From: Fulvitalea axinellae
GTDB taxonomy: Bacteria; Bacteroidota; Bacteroidia; Cytophagales; Cyclobacteriaceae
Direction of reading: 5' to 3'
Assembly (NCBI RefSeq): GCF_036492835.1
Contig: NZ_AP025320.1
Coordinates: 162,743 to 226,742, forward strand
DNA: 64,000 nt
The position numbers were made by a program, and so were the translations under genes. Of this stretch, positions 3,996 to 64,000 are shown piece after piece; position 1 is the first letter of the stretch; the number at the start of each line of letters is the position of its first letter. The notes under the pieces were generated by a model that was given only the letters and a program-made list of their open reading frames with translations, searched no databases and was not told the DNA's origin.

Positions 3996-6050
3996 TTACA
4001 GCGAAGATCCTTTAAGTCTTTTAGGCAACTTGGAAGTGCGCTGAACCAATTTTTCGATACTTTGCTGGATAATCAGCTCAGTGTCTTCGCCCGGTTTTTT
4101 GCCTTTTTCCAAAGTTTTTTCGGCTTCTTTCTTCCAAGCTTTTTTCGGTCTGGCTTTGATTGTTAGCGCCTCTGTGCCCAATTGGGCTAAAGAGCGGAGA
4201 TTTTCCGAATGGGGCACCAATTTCTTGAGATAAGGAGCCTTAGCGGTCAAGGCTACAAAATTCTCATGGTTATTCTCCCATTTGCTCAGGTATGCCAACA
4301 ATTGCTTTTTAGTCTCTTTATTCGGACTCTGGATATAGTCTTCTGTCAACATCTTGAAGGCCAGCGCATCCGGAGCGTCCACCGTACAGGCGTCGGCGAA
4401 GAGGGTGAAAGGAGAGTAACTTTCGTACTCCGTACCGCCCTTATTTCTTGTATAGCCTTTCAAAGGCTCTGACACGTTAGCCAATACCTCAAGTGCGGAA
4501 ATATCCTGATTGTTGGCGATATTCCTTAAGATCACTTGGCGGTTGCGGATATGCGTAAGGCCGAGTTCCTCCAGTCTGAAGCTTACTTGTTCCAAACGAC
4601 GATACATATCGCGGGCGTCCTTATACTTGGCCGGTGACCAAAGGCGTTCGGCAATGGCTATAGTACGAGGCCAGATTCTCGAATCGATTGTCGTTGGAGT
4701 TACGAGTTCGGACCACATTGTGGCTTCTCCACCCACAATGTTTTTGGTTTGCTCCGGCGTAAGTCCGTGTCCTTCCGGCAATGGCTCGGTAGCGTAGTGG
4801 TGGCTGGCCGGTTTCAGAACATCGATATAAAAACCGTTTGAAAGCAAGGTCATATAACCGCCTTTGGCCGCGTTGTGCAATGACTCAAGTCCTCTCCAAG
4901 ACTGGATAACGGCGGTTTTGGGCAAGGCAGGCTGAAGGATTTCGTCCCAGCCCATCATCTTCTTGTCGAGTTTTTCGAGGATTGTCAACAGCCTTTTGTT
5001 GAAATGCGTCTGCAAAGCGTGGTTGTCTTTGAGATTGTTCGATTTCATAAAGGCCTGAATCTTCTCGTTGGCGTCCCAGTGCTTGCCTTCGTTCTCGTCG
5101 CCGCCAATGTGGAAATAGGCGTCAGGGAACAGCGGAGCGATTTCGCTAAATACCTCTTCCAAGATCTCGTAAGTGCGCTCGTTGGTAGGGTCAAGTGTCG
5201 GGTCGAAGATGCCGGCGTAGCGCTGGATCGTGTAGGTTGTGTCATTACTGCCGATTTCCGGGTAAGTGATCAACCAAGCGGTAGCGTGGCCGGGCACGTC
5301 AAATTCGGGAACGACACGAATACCGCGCTCGTCGGCGTATTCAATCACTTCCTTAATTTCTTTCTGGGTGTAGAACATTCCGTCAGAAGCTTGCAAGTGC
5401 AGTTTCGGATGGCTTTTTGTCTCTACCCGGAATCCTTGGTCGTCGGTGAGGTGCCAGTGCATCACGTTCATCTTTACAGCAGCCATACCGTCGAGGTTTC
5501 TTTTGATTACGTCAAGTGGCTGGTAGTGACGGGCGACATCGATCATCAGGCCGCGCCAAGGGAAGCGAGGCTCGTCCTCGATGCGCATAGCCGGGAAAAA
5601 GTAGCCTTTGTCGTCGGTTTCCAAGAGCTGGAGCAAGGTTTCCAAACCGTGCATGGCGCCGAGATCGGTTTCGGCATCCAGACGAATTTTGCCGGAGGCG
5701 ATATCTAGCGTATAGCTTTCGTTTTCGCCCAAAACCACTTTGCCCGGTCTGTTTACGTTGATGATAAGCTCGGCCTCTGGGCTATTGTCGCCAGCATCGA
5801 GGAAGCCTTGGCGGAAGAACATTCCCGAACGACCGTCGAGCCTGCGCAAGAAGCGTGTGGCGTTAGGGTAAATACGCTGGTCGGGGTTGCCGGTAAAGGC
5901 TACGGTAAAATCCGGAGCGATATCGAAGCGCCCCGTGGCCGGCACCATTTTCTTGGGGACGGGCATCAGATTGAGCGTTTCGGCTTTTTGCGCTTGCGCG
6001 GAAAAAATGACTGACGCTAGTGCGATCATGGCCAAAAACAATTTTTTCAT
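3996..6050 (-). CDS. GH20 beta-N-acetylhexosaminidase
   Basis: A 684-residue secreted enzyme that removes terminal beta-linked GlcNAc or GalNAc. A signal peptide (1-20, ending SAQA) is followed by the GH20 N-terminal domain (about 25-160) and the catalytic TIM barrel (about 162-500). Visible signatures are HWHLTDDQGFR (198-208), EFDVPGHATAW (249-259) and the catalytic Asp-Glu pair D318-E319 in HIGGDENEGKHW. The C-terminal region of about 180 residues is helical and very basic at the end (KKAWKKEAEKTLEKGKK), beyond the usual core. Substrate-assisted hydrolysis is the known family mechanism. It is the last gene of the minus-strand glycan cluster. The released amino sugars could feed the NagB/transporter pair at 48-51 kb; that link is inferred. 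Confidence 0.95.
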   Translation of the reverse strand: MKKLFLAMIALASVIFSAQAQKAETLNLMPVPKKMVPATGRFDIAPDFTVAFTGNPDQRIYPNATRFLRRLDGRSGMFFRQGFLDAGDNSPEAELIINVNRPGKVVLGENESYTLDIASGKIRLDAETDLGAMHGLETLLQLLETDDKGYFFPAMRIEDEPRFPWRGLMIDVARHYQPLDVIKRNLDGMAAVKMNVMHWHLTDDQGFRVETKSHPKLHLQASDGMFYTQKEIKEVIEYADERGIRVVPEFDVPGHATAWLITYPEIGSNDTTYTIQRYAGIFDPTLDPTNERTYEILEEVFSEIAPLFPDAYFHIGGDENEGKHWDANEKIQAFMKSNNLKDNHALQTHFNKRLLTILEKLDKKMMGWDEILQPALPKTAVIQSWRGLESLHNAAKGGYMTLLSNGFYIDVLKPASHHYATEPLPEGHGLTPEQTKNIVGGEATMWSELVTPTTIDSRIWPRTIAIAERLWSPAKYKDARDMYRRLEQVSFRLEELGLTHIRNRQVILRNIANNQDISALEVLANVSEPLKGYTRNKGGTEYESYSPFTLFADACTVDAPDALAFKMLTEDYIQSPNKETKKQLLAYLSKWENNHENFVALTAKAPYLKKLVPHSENLRSLAQLGTEALTIKARPKKAWKKEAEKTLEKGKKPGEDTELIIQQSIEKLVQRTSKLPKRLKGSSL

Positions 6051-6218
6051 GGCTTGAGAGATTTGTGACGGATTGTCCGGCCCGTACGGGCTTTTGACTA
6101 TCCGGGTTGAAAATCCTTTACAAACCTGAATATTGCTTTTTTGTAGCTCAAAACCAATGACCGAGGGACGATGGGTGGGCAGATAGGGGGAAATGCCCGC
6201 TTTTGCGTGCGATAGGTT

Positions 6219-8231
6219 CTATTTTTTGTCTCCAGCCAATGCTTTTGGAGGTTTGGGACTTTGGTCCAAAACGCTCCAATCACTCACTTTGCGGAGCGTC
6301 TCCAGACGGTATGCCATATACCAAACCGGAAGCCAGGAAGAATCGACATTGCCGGAGCCGTGGCCGGCTTTTGTCTTGCTCCATGCCCAGTTCGCTTGGT
6401 AAATAGTACTGAACTGCCCGCCTGCGGGAATAATGTCGCCGTTTGCGTCCGGTTTTTTTCCGTCGCTGACCAGTGAGTTTCCTTCGTGCCAGATCGCTTG
6501 GGCGCGTTGTAGCCAAATATCGTTTCCTGTAAGCTTGGCCAGCTCTACCCAATCGCTGACCCACACTAACGCATAGTGGTCAAGGTGATTGTGCGCCGCC
6601 GATACCGAGGTGGCGCCTGTGCTTCGGTAACCGCTTTTGGCCAGGAAACTTTTCTCGGGAAACCTGACATCGTAGTGCCATTGCCAAGACGCCAAATACT
6701 GAGAAAGCCTTTCCGCTTTTTCCAAATAACCTTTGTCTTGGGTGGTTTTGTGCAAAAGCATCGCTGACCGCAACAGCGGGAAAGATGATTCCTTGTCCAC
6801 GCAGTTGGTTCCCAACGCTCCCGCCACCGTGTAGCCATGGTCTTGGAACTGACCGAAATAGAAATCGAAGGCCTTAAGGGCGGCGTCGAGGTATTTTTGC
6901 TTTTCGGTAATATGGAACGCTTTTATCATGCCCGGGATCAGAAACGCTCCGGTAGTGCCGTTTCTGTTAAGGCATTCGCCTTTGTTGTTCCAATATTTGC
7001 CCAAGCGTCCGCTTTCCTCCTGTTGGGAAATCATAAAGTCGCAAATAGCCAAGGCTACGTCCTTGTAATTGGGTTTGTATACACCACATTTTTTCGCAAG
7101 CTCAAAAGCCTCGAAAAACTGGTAGGAGGCGGTGCCGAGGTTACAGGCGTCTTGGGCCTCCCAAGCCCGCCCTCTGGGAAGAAGCTGGTCGTAATGGCAT
7201 CGGAACAGTCCGTTTGGCATGGAGCAGTCGCGGGCCCATATGTCAAGGCTTTCCAGACCCTTTTCCAAAGCGTCTTTGTCTTTTCGGCTGATGTATTCGT
7301 ACAAAAAAGCGTTCGCTAAGGAAATGTTTTGTCCGCAAAAACCGGTTTCGTAGCGCCAATAATATTTGTGTCCCCAACCTTCGGATTTGCTATGCCTTTT
7401 CAAGCCAAGACGAAATCCCTTGAAAGGCCCTTCTTCGCTCCAAGAGTGCGTTTTAATAAAATCGATGCTGAGGTCCCTGATCTTTTCGGCGGACTTTTCG
7501 GGTTTTGTGGGGCGGTAGCCTTTCTTCCAAGCGAAATCCAGAAATTTGGAACTGGCCCCGTGCCCGTTTTCCTTTGGCGCCAATACCACCCAAGCCGATA
7601 ATTTTAGGCTTTGCCCGGATTTGAGGCTTAAGTTGCGGGCGTAAGGACCGGTAAATGAGTTTTTCCCCGAATAACTTCTCGGCGTTTCCTCCTCAGGCCA
7701 GATCAGCCGGTGGTAGGTGTTGTTTTGCTTTGGCATCAAGGAGCAGGAGAAAGGGATCGATTTGTCATTGAAATCGGAGAAAAGCGCGACAGTCCACTTG
7801 TCGTTTTCCGAATACGTGGCGCCGGGCACCGACGTCCGGTTATAGGAGAAGACCCAAGGCAGACCTTTGTCCGTAAAGGTTTTTGGTTCGTTTCCGTCGC
7901 CCCAAGGATTACCGTTGTAGCTGAGGCCGGGAATCATCCCGTAATCGAATTTTCCCGGCGTTTTCACCTCCATAGTGGTGCGGAAGGAGTCGAGATCTTT
8001 GCCGATGTTTGTGACTGTACGTTCCCATAGGAATATCCCTTCCTCTACCTCATTCACTTTATCGATCACCTTCAGCCGGCCGTCTTTTAATGGGGTGAGG
8101 GTAGCGATATGCGAATCGGCAAACTTCAAAGTGCCCGATTCTTCTGAAAAATGGAAGCCTTTGTCTTTCGGCGAACCGCAACCGAAAAAAAGGAAAAAGA
8201 ATATGATCGTAAGGTGGAAATACTGTCTCAT
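6219..8231 (-). CDS. Lipoprotein with (alpha/alpha)-toroid glycosidase-like domain (paralog A)
   Basis: A 670-residue lipoprotein. The ATG at 8231 was preferred to the one 36 bases upstream because it begins a lipoprotein signal (MRQYFHLTII...FFGC). The N-terminal half (about 25-260) is beta-rich; the C-terminal half (about 270-650) is helical, with repeated hairpins such as DACNLGTASYQFFEAFELAKKCG, VDKESSFPLLRSAMLL and YLASWQWHYDV, resembling six-hairpin glycosidases. It aligns over its whole length with the next gene upstream (8602-10650), sharing the VDKESSFP, YLASWQWH and HxHLDHYAL-type blocks, so the two are tandem paralogs. No CAZy family could be assigned from the sequence alone. A role in releasing or trimming a complex glycan at the cell surface or periplasm is inferred from context. 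Confidence 0.6.
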   Translation of the reverse strand: MRQYFHLTIIFFFLFFGCGSPKDKGFHFSEESGTLKFADSHIATLTPLKDGRLKVIDKVNEVEEGIFLWERTVTNIGKDLDSFRTTMEVKTPGKFDYGMIPGLSYNGNPWGDGNEPKTFTDKGLPWVFSYNRTSVPGATYSENDKWTVALFSDFNDKSIPFSCSLMPKQNNTYHRLIWPEEETPRSYSGKNSFTGPYARNLSLKSGQSLKLSAWVVLAPKENGHGASSKFLDFAWKKGYRPTKPEKSAEKIRDLSIDFIKTHSWSEEGPFKGFRLGLKRHSKSEGWGHKYYWRYETGFCGQNISLANAFLYEYISRKDKDALEKGLESLDIWARDCSMPNGLFRCHYDQLLPRGRAWEAQDACNLGTASYQFFEAFELAKKCGVYKPNYKDVALAICDFMISQQEESGRLGKYWNNKGECLNRNGTTGAFLIPGMIKAFHITEKQKYLDAALKAFDFYFGQFQDHGYTVAGALGTNCVDKESSFPLLRSAMLLHKTTQDKGYLEKAERLSQYLASWQWHYDVRFPEKSFLAKSGYRSTGATSVSAAHNHLDHYALVWVSDWVELAKLTGNDIWLQRAQAIWHEGNSLVSDGKKPDANGDIIPAGGQFSTIYQANWAWSKTKAGHGSGNVDSSWLPVWYMAYRLETLRKVSDWSVLDQSPKPPKALAGDKK

Positions 8232-60454: not shown

Positions 60455-61141
60455 ATGCAACATTTGCTTTCAAAGATCAGTATACATGTAAACGAGAGTG
60501 TCCATCTCAAAAATCCCGAATCGAGTGATCTGGGTAAGAAAATATTACGTGGGTCTATCGAGTTGATTGACGAGATGGGATTTGAGAGTTTTACTTTCCG
60601 TAAACTGGCTAAGGCCATTGGGTCTACGGAAGCGTCTGTATACCGATACTTCGAAAGTAAGCATAAACTGTTGCTGTATTTGACCTCATGGTATTGGGGG
60701 TGGATGGAATATCGTTTGGCATTCGGCTTGGCTAATGTTGAATCTCCTGAGGAGAAATTGCTCAGAGCTTTAGATTTACTGACAGAGTCGGCAACTGCTA
60801 CGGATTGTTTTCCTCATATTGACGAATCCAAATTGCACAGAATCGTGGTCGCCGAGTCGGCCAAGGCTTATCTGACCAAGGCAGTGGATCATGAAAATAG
60901 TGAAGGTGCTTTTGCGGGATATAAAAGTTTCGTGAGTAGAGTGAGTGATATCGTTCTTGAAATAAACGTTGGATATAAGTACCCGCATATGCTTGTGTCA
61001 ACAGTAATTGAAGGAGCCCACCACCAACGTTATTTTATGGAACATTTGCCAAGACTTACCGATATGGTGGAAGGCGAAGATTCTGTAAGAATGTTTTATA
61101 GAAAAATGGTCTTTTCGGCTATTCGAAAAGAAGAAAAATAG
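60455..61141 (+). CDS. TetR/AcrR family transcriptional regulator
   Basis: A 228-residue regulator. The N-terminal helix-turn-helix is at about 28-75 (KKILRGSIELIDEMGFESFTFRKLAKAIGSTEASVYRYFESKHKLLLYL). The C-terminal helical part (about 80-228) should bind an effector; it has no recognisable sequence match. A perfect palindrome upstream suggests autoregulation. The next gene starts 30 bases after its stop, so they are probably co-transcribed. Confidence 0.92.
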   Translation: MQHLLSKISIHVNESVHLKNPESSDLGKKILRGSIELIDEMGFESFTFRKLAKAIGSTEASVYRYFESKHKLLLYLTSWYWGWMEYRLAFGLANVESPEEKLLRALDLLTESATATDCFPHIDESKLHRIVVAESAKAYLTKAVDHENSEGAFAGYKSFVSRVSDIVLEINVGYKYPHMLVSTVIEGAHHQRYFMEHLPRLTDMVEGEDSVRMFYRKMVFSAIRKEEK

Positions 61142-61170: not shown

Positions 61171-61515
61171 ATGACAAATCGAAAACCGAAAATAGAGAAG
61201 AGTGATGACCGCCGGATTTACCGGACGGTGATGCCTTTCGTATTCGTTTTGATTTTTATTTCGGCGGCTGTATGCGAGCGTTACAATGATTACCTCTTCG
61301 GTTCCGACAATATCGAACTCAGCCAAAAGTGCGAAAAGGAAAACGCGGAAAAAGACAATAAGAAGGGGAAAGAGAAAGATGAATTTTTATACAGGCAGGG
61401 TCAGGGCGCTTTGACAGACGAGGAAAATCCTTCTAAAAAACAGGCTGGCAAAGATCCGCTTTTTCGCTTGTCCGACCATTTTATGGATATAAGCACCCCG
61501 CCTCCGGAGTGTTGA
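61171..61515 (+). CDS. Small single-pass membrane protein, unknown
   Basis: A 114-residue protein with a short basic N-terminus (MTNRKPKIEKSDDRRIYR), one membrane helix (about 19-37, TVMPFVFVLIFISAAVCERY) and a charged C-terminal part (Lys/Glu-rich, about 50-85) ending with two Pro-rich turns (STPPPEC). The N-terminus is probably inside and the charged tail outside. No domain was recognised. It begins 30 bases after the TetR gene stop and is its probable operon partner. Confidence 0.5.
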   Translation: MTNRKPKIEKSDDRRIYRTVMPFVFVLIFISAAVCERYNDYLFGSDNIELSQKCEKENAEKDNKKGKEKDEFLYRQGQGALTDEENPSKKQAGKDPLFRLSDHFMDISTPPPEC

Positions 61516-61816: not shown

Positions 61817-63433
61817 ATGGATTCTCAAGATAAACAAGGTTTCTTTGCTAACCTTCGTTACGATGCACCCTCAAGTATAGTGGTGTTCCTCGTGGCTATG
61901 CCCCTATGTTTGGGTATCGCCTTAGCGTCTGGCGCTCCTTTATTTTCAGGTATTATCGCCGGTATTGTAGGTGGTATAGTAGTAGGGTCGCTTAGTGGCT
62001 CAGCATTGGGTGTTAGTGGTCCTGCGGCGGGTCTTGCCGTAATCATTGTTTCTGCAATCAATGATCTGGGTTCATTCGAGGCGTTATTGCTCGCAGTCGT
62101 ATTCTCAGGTATTATTCAGATTGCGTTGGGATTTCTTAGGGCCGGCGTTATCGGTTATTACTTCCCTACGGCGGTTATTAGAGGCATGCTTTCGGGTATT
62201 GGTGTTTTCATCATCCTCAAGCAAATTCCACACGCTTTCGGTTATGATAGGGATCCGGTGGGAGACTTTAGCTTCCTTCAGGTAGACGGTGAAAATACGA
62301 TCAGCGGAATTCTGAATATGCTGAATTTCATCAGCCCGGGGGCTTTGATTATCGCGGCGATATCTATGGCTATCCTCATTTTATGGGAGAAGCCTTTTAT
62401 TAGTCGTCTTGGCTTCACCAAAATTATTAAAGGACCATTGGTAGCTGTTTTGGCAGGTATCGGTTTGAATGTCTATTTCGCTGATATGCCAGAGTTTGCC
62501 CTTAAGCAAGACCAACTTGTGGCCCTTCCGATAGCTGGTTCGTTTGGTGGTTTTATGGACCTTTTGACGAAACCGGATTTTAGCCAGATAACAAACCCGC
62601 AGATTTATATCGTAGCGCTTACCATAGCTGTGGTAGGTAGTATCGAAACCTTGTTGTCGGTAGAGGCGGCGGATAAACTTGATCCTCAGAAAAGAGTGAC
62701 CCCAACAAACAGAGAGTTGAAAGCTCAAGGTGTTGGTAACTTAATTTCAGGCCTTTTGGGAGGTTTGCCTGTTACGCAGGTTATCGTTCGTAGTTCGGTG
62801 AACGTTCAGACTGGCGGCCGTACCAAAGCTTCTGCGATCATGCACGGTGTATTGCTTTTCGTATGCGCCTTGTCTATTCCTAAATTGCTGAACCTGATTC
62901 CTTTCTCCAGTTTGGCATCTATCCTTATTGTGGTAGGTTTTAAACTCGCCAAGCCGGCCTTGTTTAAGGAAATGTACTCTAGAGGATTCTCCCAATTTGT
63001 GCCTTTTGTAGTGACTATTCTCGGTATCGTATTTATCGATCTGCTGATGGGTATTGCGCTCGGTATGATCGTGGCGATTTTCCATATCCTTTGGAACAAC
63101 TACAAAACTCCTTACTTCTTCGAGGCGAAAGACTATCGTCCGGGTGAGCCTATTCGTATCCGTTTGGCGGAAGACGTAAGCTTCCTGAACAAAGCGGGCG
63201 TACTCCGTACACTGAAGCATATTCCTGACCATTCGACTGTGATTATCGACGCTTCAAATACTCGTAGCGTTCATATCGATGTGTTAGAAATTATCGATGA
63301 TTATAAGGCCAATGCCGAAACAAAAGGCATTGAACTAATCCTTGAAGGCTTTGACAAACTGGGCACTTATGATGATCCGGTTAAGCAAGTCAGTAAAGTC
63401 GTAGGCTCTGACAGTAAAAACAAAGTTGCCTAA
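61817..63433 (+). CDS. SulP family inorganic anion transporter
   Basis: A 538-residue SLC26/SulP-type transporter with 10-14 predicted membrane helices (about 15-435) and a C-terminal STAS-like domain (about 440-535, IIDASNTRSVHIDVLEIIDDYKANAETKGIELIL). Typical sequences are VAMPLCLGIALASGAPLFSGIIAGIVGG at the N-terminus and GVSGPAAGLAV. Members transport sulfate, bicarbonate or other anions; BicA-type SulP proteins import bicarbonate with Na+. The adjacent gene looks like a carbonic anhydrase, which favours bicarbonate over sulfate as substrate; that is an inference from context. Confidence 0.92.
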   Translation: MDSQDKQGFFANLRYDAPSSIVVFLVAMPLCLGIALASGAPLFSGIIAGIVGGIVVGSLSGSALGVSGPAAGLAVIIVSAINDLGSFEALLLAVVFSGIIQIALGFLRAGVIGYYFPTAVIRGMLSGIGVFIILKQIPHAFGYDRDPVGDFSFLQVDGENTISGILNMLNFISPGALIIAAISMAILILWEKPFISRLGFTKIIKGPLVAVLAGIGLNVYFADMPEFALKQDQLVALPIAGSFGGFMDLLTKPDFSQITNPQIYIVALTIAVVGSIETLLSVEAADKLDPQKRVTPTNRELKAQGVGNLISGLLGGLPVTQVIVRSSVNVQTGGRTKASAIMHGVLLFVCALSIPKLLNLIPFSSLASILIVVGFKLAKPALFKEMYSRGFSQFVPFVVTILGIVFIDLLMGIALGMIVAIFHILWNNYKTPYFFEAKDYRPGEPIRIRLAEDVSFLNKAGVLRTLKHIPDHSTVIIDASNTRSVHIDVLEIIDDYKANAETKGIELILEGFDKLGTYDDPVKQVSKVVGSDSKNKVA

Positions 63434-63568
63434 GACATCTTTTCAAAAAACAGTTTGGAAGCTTCCAAAAGACCGAGGTGTAAAATTGGTCTGGGGGCTT
63501 CTACTGACCAGTATTTTGAAGACTATCCTTTTTAACTGAAATTTTTACAACCAAATAAAGAAATTACC

Positions 63569-64000
63569 ATGATTACCAAACAAGATATCCAGGACATTCA
63601 GAAGAAGTGGGGCGAAGCTATCGTGAAAATCGGTACGCTTAAAGAAGACAGAAGCGCCTGTGAAGAGGTAACTTCTGGACTGATCACGTCGCTTTACGCT
63701 TTCGAGGATGGACATATTTTGTTCAAGCCGACAAAAGCCGCCGCTGAGCAGTTCCGTCCAGACCACAAGGCTGCATTGTCGTACTTCATCGGTGGCGACA
63801 GCGACTTTCCGGAAGACGGAGGGTTTGCGCTTCAGCCTTGGACAAAGGTTCGTTTTGAGAACGCTCATATTTTGTTGGACACGAACCGCGCTACGGCAAT
63901 GGGGAACTATTTCTTCACTGGCGAAGACGGATCGGAGACTAAGGTGGAATACACTTTTGGATACAAGAAAAACGATGCTGGCGAACTCAAAATCGAGTTG
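63569..64000 (+). CDS. Putative COG4337/iota-type carbonic anhydrase-like protein (partial, runs off window)
   Basis: The frame from the ATG at 63569 is open to the end of the window (144 codons seen). It contains KKWGEAIVKIG (12-22), GHILFKPTKAAAEQFRPDHKAALSYFIGG (48-76), EDGGFALQPWTKVRFENAHILL and MGNYFFTGEDGS, then VEYTFGYKKNDAGELKIEL at the edge. From memory this matches the COG4337 group, some members of which (cyanobacterial and algal) have been described as metal-free iota carbonic anhydrases in the SnoaL/CaMKII-AD superfamily. These proteins usually carry a HHSS motif just past the point where the window ends. Homologs are often labelled phosphoribosyl-AMP cyclohydrolase, which the fold does not support. 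It follows the SulP gene by 135 bases. Confidence 0.6.
   Translation, partial: MITKQDIQDIQKKWGEAIVKIGTLKEDRSACEEVTSGLITSLYAFEDGHILFKPTKAAAEQFRPDHKAALSYFIGGDSDFPEDGGFALQPWTKVRFENAHILLDTNRATAMGNYFFTGEDGSETKVEYTFGYKKNDAGELKIEL

Follow-up and report, generated by a model that had tools for sequence, protein, structure and literature searches.

A putative SulP–carbonic anhydrase locus of Fulvitalea axinellae with an iota-class enzyme where many relatives carry a beta-class one

Introduction

Fusions of SulP transporters with carbonic anhydrases (CAs) are reportedly the subject of a paper by Felce and Saier. The iota-class CAs of COG4337 are represented by all2909 of Anabaena (7c5v) and Bn86287 of Bigelowiella (7c5x). 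According to the available text of the corresponding report (PMC8132391), COG4337 enzymes hydrate CO2 with no measurable dehydration of bicarbonate, mutations show that Thr106 and Tyr124 are required for activity and that His197 and Ser199 also matter, and signal peptides are predicted for most bacterial members. A further comparison is offered by Zur-regulon clusters with COG0523 genes, in which, as given in the accessible parts of two publications (PMC2770081, PMC6103462), the stand-in is a gamma-class CA or ytiB of B. subtilis. Our literature search returned no report of a SulP gene combined with COG4337 or of an iota-CA replacing a beta-CA; subscription journals were mostly outside that search, so this is weak evidence.

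Here, we analysed a stretch of 64,000 nucleotides from Fulvitalea axinellae (genome G000, contig C7, positions 162743-226742; hereafter, the window), the last base of which is also the last base of the contig (226742). At its end, a CA gene of the iota type follows a SulP gene. The window CA resembles all2909 and Bn86287 (PMC8132391) in sequence over its whole readable length and in three active-site residues (Thr, Tyr, and Phe); however, it has a single domain, leaves no room for a signal peptide, and lies beside a SulP gene. The other related arrangement is the SulP–beta-CA pair. Among 150 listed SulP genes of the family, at least 32 are accompanied by a beta-CA gene at a distance of up to 3 kb; every one of these shares the SulP strand, and in 31 the distance is below 260 bases (at least 31 pairs 54–259 bases apart). 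In addition, genomes G098 and G145 have SulP and beta-CA matches joined within one open frame (747 and 771 aa), which indicates fusions. Unlike the CAs of these pairs and fusions, the window CA belongs to an unrelated, metal-free class. We propose, with a probability of roughly 0.6, that this is a SulP–CA locus in which a metal-free cytosolic iota-CA occupies the position held in many relatives by a zinc beta-CA.

Results and Discussion

The carbonic anhydrase gene at the contig end

The CA gene starts with an ATG at 63569 on the forward strand, and its reading frame remains open to the contig end; therefore, only the first 144 aa (63569..64000) are available, and the assembly lacks the remaining 3' part. 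Since the contig ends ahead of the HHSS position, the HHSS tail of the window CA is unreadable. A pattern search of the whole G000 genome, including the other contigs, for codons of HHSS-x-PY gave 0 matches to this motif.

A phmmer search matched the readable part to the Bigelowiella iota-CA 7c5x with an E value of 3.7e-81 over three matched domains, and to the cyanobacterial iota-CA 7c5v with an E value of 1.9e-29. The NCBIfam model NF047901 ("metal-independent carbonic anhydrase") was matched with 116 bits (E 1.2e-33), which is below its cut-off of 350 bits. Complete relatives with intact ends also miss this cut-off (146.7 bits for G010, 118.4 bits for G812, and 141.1 bits for the Achromatium fusion described below); thus, NF047901 marks a narrower group. 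There was no Pfam match at a limit of E 1, and superantigen-like and other weak matches (E 0.0045 or worse) were dismissed. In the alignment, the active-site residues T55, Y72, and F86 correspond to Thr106, Tyr124, and Phe138 of all2909. The blocks FKPTKAAAEQF, SYFIGG, VRFENAHILL, and MGNYFFT, from which the initial annotation had derived its assignment, are all present. Judged by its sequence, the window CA is of the iota/COG4337 type.

The iota-CA relatives fell mainly into two kinds. Proteins of the first kind have about 150–160 aa, no N-terminal extension, and an HHSS end, while those of the second are longer, mostly with a hydrophobic start, and end with HKSS or HKSA. The exceptions were L010 (Desulfocapsa), which combines a signal-like start with HHSS, and L106, with an HQSS end; a few ORFs were overlong, as the first possible start was used. 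In the window, the open frame holds 11 codons ahead of the ATG (155 vs 144), and a signal peptide therefore has no room. The complete cytosolic Bacteroidota relatives in the alignment end with HHSS-x-P[YF], and the iota-CA of G010, the best relative from the family that is linked to SulP, terminates with HHSSLPY. The window CA is assigned to the kind without an N-terminal extension, which is predicted to be cytosolic.

The SulP transporter and the gap to the carbonic anhydrase gene

The SulP-family anion transporter (61817..63433, forward strand, 538 aa) is complete from the ATG at 61817 to the stop codon at 63433 and matches PF00916 with 187.2 bits (E 5.3e-55; cut-off 23.2 bits). The pairing put forward in the initial annotation, a complete SulP gene with an adjacent iota/COG4337 CA gene on the same strand, was thereby borne out. 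A C-terminal STAS match was not found by a Pfam search to E 1, which returned PF00916 and PF16983 only and left about 100 C-terminal residues outside the matches. The best solved relatives were 6ki1 (E 2.6e-23), which we take to be the cyanobacterial bicarbonate transporter BicA, and 5iof (4.5e-22) and 5da0 (1.1e-21), both presumably SLC26Dg. Although 6ki1 is the closest of them, the window SulP is far from the cut-off of the BicA model NF050096 (127.7 vs 880 bits), and the aligned BicA has other letters in the segment GGLPVTQVIVRSS. The sulfate-permease model (150.5 vs 380 bits) and the DauA model (171.1 vs 614 bits) were missed as well; with all three cut-offs missed, an assignment of the substrate on the basis of family cut-offs was abandoned.

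The SulP and CA genes are separated by 135 bases (63434..63568, forward strand), in which folding predicted a possible hairpin: the segment 63431-63568 gave -31 kcal/mol with a z value of -1.96, equalled by 9 of 200 shuffles. Promoter and terminator calls in the gap were rejected, being no better than those in shuffled sequences, and no terminator was called. In G010, the corresponding gap is 354 bases long. With gaps of these lengths, separate transcription of the two genes is possible.

Frequency of SulP adjacency

SulP genes were found in the flanks of 4 of 93 iota-CA loci, one of which was counted twice (L007 = L100) and six of which had less than 500 bases on one side. The two genes are adjacent in the window, in G010, and in G812, a genome from another family of the class, and lie further apart in G031. 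The latter was not accepted as an adjacent case, with the secreted iota-CA and SulP divergent and a 630-aa gene between them. From the side of the transporter, an iota-CA lies within 3 kb of at least two of the 150 listed SulP genes. Broadly conserved linkage to SulP, which the initial annotation had proposed to look for in related genomes, did not emerge from these loci, and a widespread SulP/iota-CA operon was rejected at an adjacency of 3 in 93. In the family sample, however, 2 of 24 iota-CA loci were adjacent to SulP, compared with about 0.03 expected by chance, and the chance of two or more adjacencies was 0.0003; both are rough estimates that assume 1.5 SulP genes per 5-Mb genome.

In G812 (L183), an ORF of the PPP-tail type described below (5458-5847) is followed by the iota-CA (5965-6450), which terminates with HHSSLPYNPNT, and then by pieces of SulP. 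The SulP sequence in this genome (6575-8158) is split over three reading frames, which reflects either decay or sequencing errors.

A recurrent gene module

Upstream of SulP, the window carries a gene for a TetR-family regulator (60455..61141, forward strand, 228 aa; PF00440, E 6.4e-11) and one for a small protein of 114 aa with PPP in its C-terminal end (61171..61515, forward strand). The latter, which we call the PPP-tail protein, begins with a hydrophobic stretch, is charged in its middle part, and ends with STPPPEC. At the limits used, the PPP-tail proteins of the window, G010, and G812 had no match in Pfam or NCBIfam.

SulP relatives (E 1e-60 or better) were found in 225 of 246 family genomes, and 43 SulP loci were compared, namely those of the window, G010, and G031 together with 40 fetched neighbourhoods. 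At 26 of the 43 loci, a small ORF whose last 14 residues include PPP was located just upstream of SulP; among 196 small ORFs from other loci, which served as controls, 3 had this feature (Fisher 3e-20, relatedness ignored). Two of the three control positives were one ORF counted twice, and overlapping ORFs had been removed from the control set but not from the test set. The members share the hydrophobic N-terminal stretch, the charged middle, and TPPPE-like ends, and vary in the remainder. Within the fetched stretches, a TetR homologue was present in 12 of 40 SulP neighbourhoods, 8 times on the SulP strand. A beta-CA directly followed SulP in 12 of the 40, and the complete order TetR, PPP-tail, SulP, beta-CA was observed in 6. 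The window has the order TetR, PPP-tail, SulP, iota-CA, and G010 has PPP-tail, SulP, iota-CA. In the remaining 28 neighbourhoods, the slot by SulP held neither a beta- nor an iota-CA; since neither class was beside SulP at 28 of the 43 loci compared, the CA is optional. The locus is thus a recurrent module of TetR, a small PPP-tail protein, SulP, and a CA, which is a new observation.

Proposed displacement of the beta-class enzyme

The beta-CAs were split by score into type A, similar to the G000 gene at C1:3940239, and type B. Ten of the 12 SulP-linked beta-CAs were of type B and two of type A; the beta-CA of G016, with one gene between it and SulP, was also of type B. A single beta-CA match was obtained in G000 and likewise in G010; both are of type A and lie far from SulP. 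Thus, the usual SulP-linked type is missing from both genomes.

A phylogenetic tree of the iota-CAs, built by a quick method from a short protein, did not unite the SulP-linked members in one clade, and its well-supported branches force at least two changes. The long branch of G812 joins another long branch, so that its placement is unsure. On the SulP tree, G000 and G010 grouped with the beta-linked G443 (support 82). This grouping allows one gain within the family, and the iota-CA may have been acquired there only once. Taken together, the gene neighbourhoods and trees suggest that, next to SulP, an iota-CA took over from the zinc enzyme and that this probably happened more than once, the recruitment in G812 resting on the long branch. 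Replacement also appears to be a better reading than a conserved operon, given that the slot in the fetched relatives holds a beta-CA or no CA. This suggests that unrelated enzymes are swappable at one bicarbonate-handling locus.

If this is true, the locus represents a clean natural experiment, with a metal-free, unrelated enzyme at the genomic position of a zinc enzyme while the neighbouring transporter stays of one kind. The iota-CAs, for most bacterial members of which export was predicted, would thereby be linked to the handling of bicarbonate in the cytosol of a non-RuBisCO organism, and attention would be drawn to the small uncharacterised PPP-tail protein common to both CA versions. 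The initial annotation had regarded the host as a heterotrophic member of the Bacteroidota, and this agreed with a search of the G000 genome, in which the RuBisCO large subunit was not found (0/1). A broader and rather improbable proposal is that SulP, the PPP-tail membrane protein, and the CA might form one bicarbonate module of Bacteroidota, in which the PPP-tail protein or SulP would accept a beta- or an iota-CA and lineages would swap the class according to zinc supply.

Proposed mechanism and alternative explanations

A CA gene next to SulP points to bicarbonate as the substrate, and so does a BicA structure as the closest solved relative, in spite of the distance from the BicA model. In the proposed mechanism, SulP would move bicarbonate across the inner membrane or swap it for another anion. 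On the inner side, the iota-CA would speed up the conversion between CO2 and bicarbonate without a metal. Bicarbonate could thereby be maintained for carboxylases, or as a counter-ion of SulP, under zinc scarcity as well. For the window locus, we infer co-expression, substrate, activity, and zinc sparing.

The direction of transport may, however, be different. SulP could be an anion exchanger that takes in, for example, sulfate or chloride and releases bicarbonate, with the CA making the counter-ion from metabolic CO2. The available text of PMC8132391 reports hydration only for COG4337 enzymes. Such activity is hard to reconcile with the import of bicarbonate for a CO2 user and favours the making of bicarbonate over the release of CO2, as exchange would demand. 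The large distance of SulP from the BicA model and the GGLPxTQVIVRSS segment, which is conserved in 35 of 43 SulP proteins and unlike the BicA letters, point the same way. Nevertheless, the sequence here reveals no substrate, SulP also falls short of the sulfate-permease and DauA models, and the one-way activity was reported as a matter of kinetics; we consider exchange possible but somewhat doubtful.

An accidental neighbourhood is also conceivable, in which a patchily distributed iota-CA, separately transcribed from its own promoter and serving a different role, landed behind SulP in two related genomes. Such an origin agrees with the rarity of SulP adjacency, with the spacing of the two genes (135 and 354 bases) and the possible hairpin, and with the patchy occurrence, for example, of iota-CAs in 23 of 246 family genomes. 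Against it stand the excess of adjacencies over the rough chance expectation for the family sample, the PPP-tail protein found in 3 of 3 adjacent cases, and the absence from both family genomes of the usual type-B beta-CA, and we regard it as unlikely. It is far less probable still that the window CA is inactive or has another function, being a COG4337 fold without catalysis: the HHSS end is absent from the assembly and the score lies below the NF047901 cut-off, but the active-site Thr, Tyr, and Phe are retained, and complete HHSS relatives and the Achromatium fusion likewise score below that cut-off.

Possible relation to zinc limitation

Under the preferred reading, in which an iota-CA fills the slot of a zinc beta-CA, zinc sparing of carbon supply would become testable. 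Among 46 Bacteroidota loci with a cytosolic iota-CA, 9 had COG0523-like genes within the flanks fetched, whereas none of the 33 loci with a secreted iota-CA and none of the 40 SulP loci did (Fisher 1e-4, with relatedness and unequal flank lengths ignored). The nine linked members all belong to a single 15-row clade (support 89), and the window, G010, and G812 are outside it. No COG0523-like gene was found in 8 kb at the window locus (upstream flank only) or in 12.4 kb around the G010 CA. For the window locus, a zinc-sparing role is therefore an extension from related iota-CAs, which we consider plausible on indirect grounds.

The likeness to the zinc-limitation clusters, as far as the accessible parts of PMC2770081 and PMC6103462 describe them, consists in the idea of a zinc-free stand-in and in related iota-CAs lying near COG0523, DUF1826, FolE, and a Fur-family gene. 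Unlike these, the window locus has no such neighbour, and the stand-in of the described clusters is a gamma-class CA or ytiB. Three loci exemplify neighbourhoods of this type. In L101 (3772-6462), a ZigA-like GTPase gene (549 bits, cut-off 600) and DUF1826 adjoin the iota-CA. L163 (95-3425) comprises a Fur-family gene, two cobW-type GTPase genes, the iota-CA, and GTP cyclohydrolase I, and in L160 a cytosolic iota-CA is likewise located in a zinc-limitation-like cluster.

Occurrence and public labels of iota-class carbonic anhydrases

At E 0.001, iota-CAs were detected in 5 of 59 genomes of relatives, 30 of 390 of the order, 23 of 246 of the family, 12 of 395 of the class, and 14 of 306 of the phylum; these samples overlap, and G000 is counted in each. 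A scan of named genomes gave 19 iota-CA loci, including Bacteroidota, sulfate reducers, and archaeal, planctomycete, proteobacterial, and Chloroflexi records.

The public label of COG4337 proteins had been called misleading, and the plasmid hits bear this out. Among the best 20 of 27 hits, 6 are labelled phosphoribosyl-AMP cyclohydrolase, 13 hypothetical protein, and 1 is unannotated; members of COG4337 are thus wrongly labelled in public records. Phosphoribosyl-AMP cyclohydrolase is the label of the COG4337 genes in the plasmid records L186, L187, and L188. For 4 of the 20 listed plasmid hits, the annotated neighbours were inspected, and SulP was absent among them. A pair of HAMP sensor kinase and response regulator genes adjoins three of these four COG4337 genes (L186, L187, and L189).

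In Candidatus Achromatium palustre, an ORF of 368 aa (L017, 1779-2885) combines a beta-CA with an iota-CA and ends with HHSALPY. Its PF00484 match spans residues 51-195, and its NF047901 match spans residues 215-365. This putative fusion supports a shared task of the two classes. Finally, G165 carries two near-identical iota-CA genes on the same strand, about 1.2 kb apart (L059, 5908-6429 and 7584-8105).
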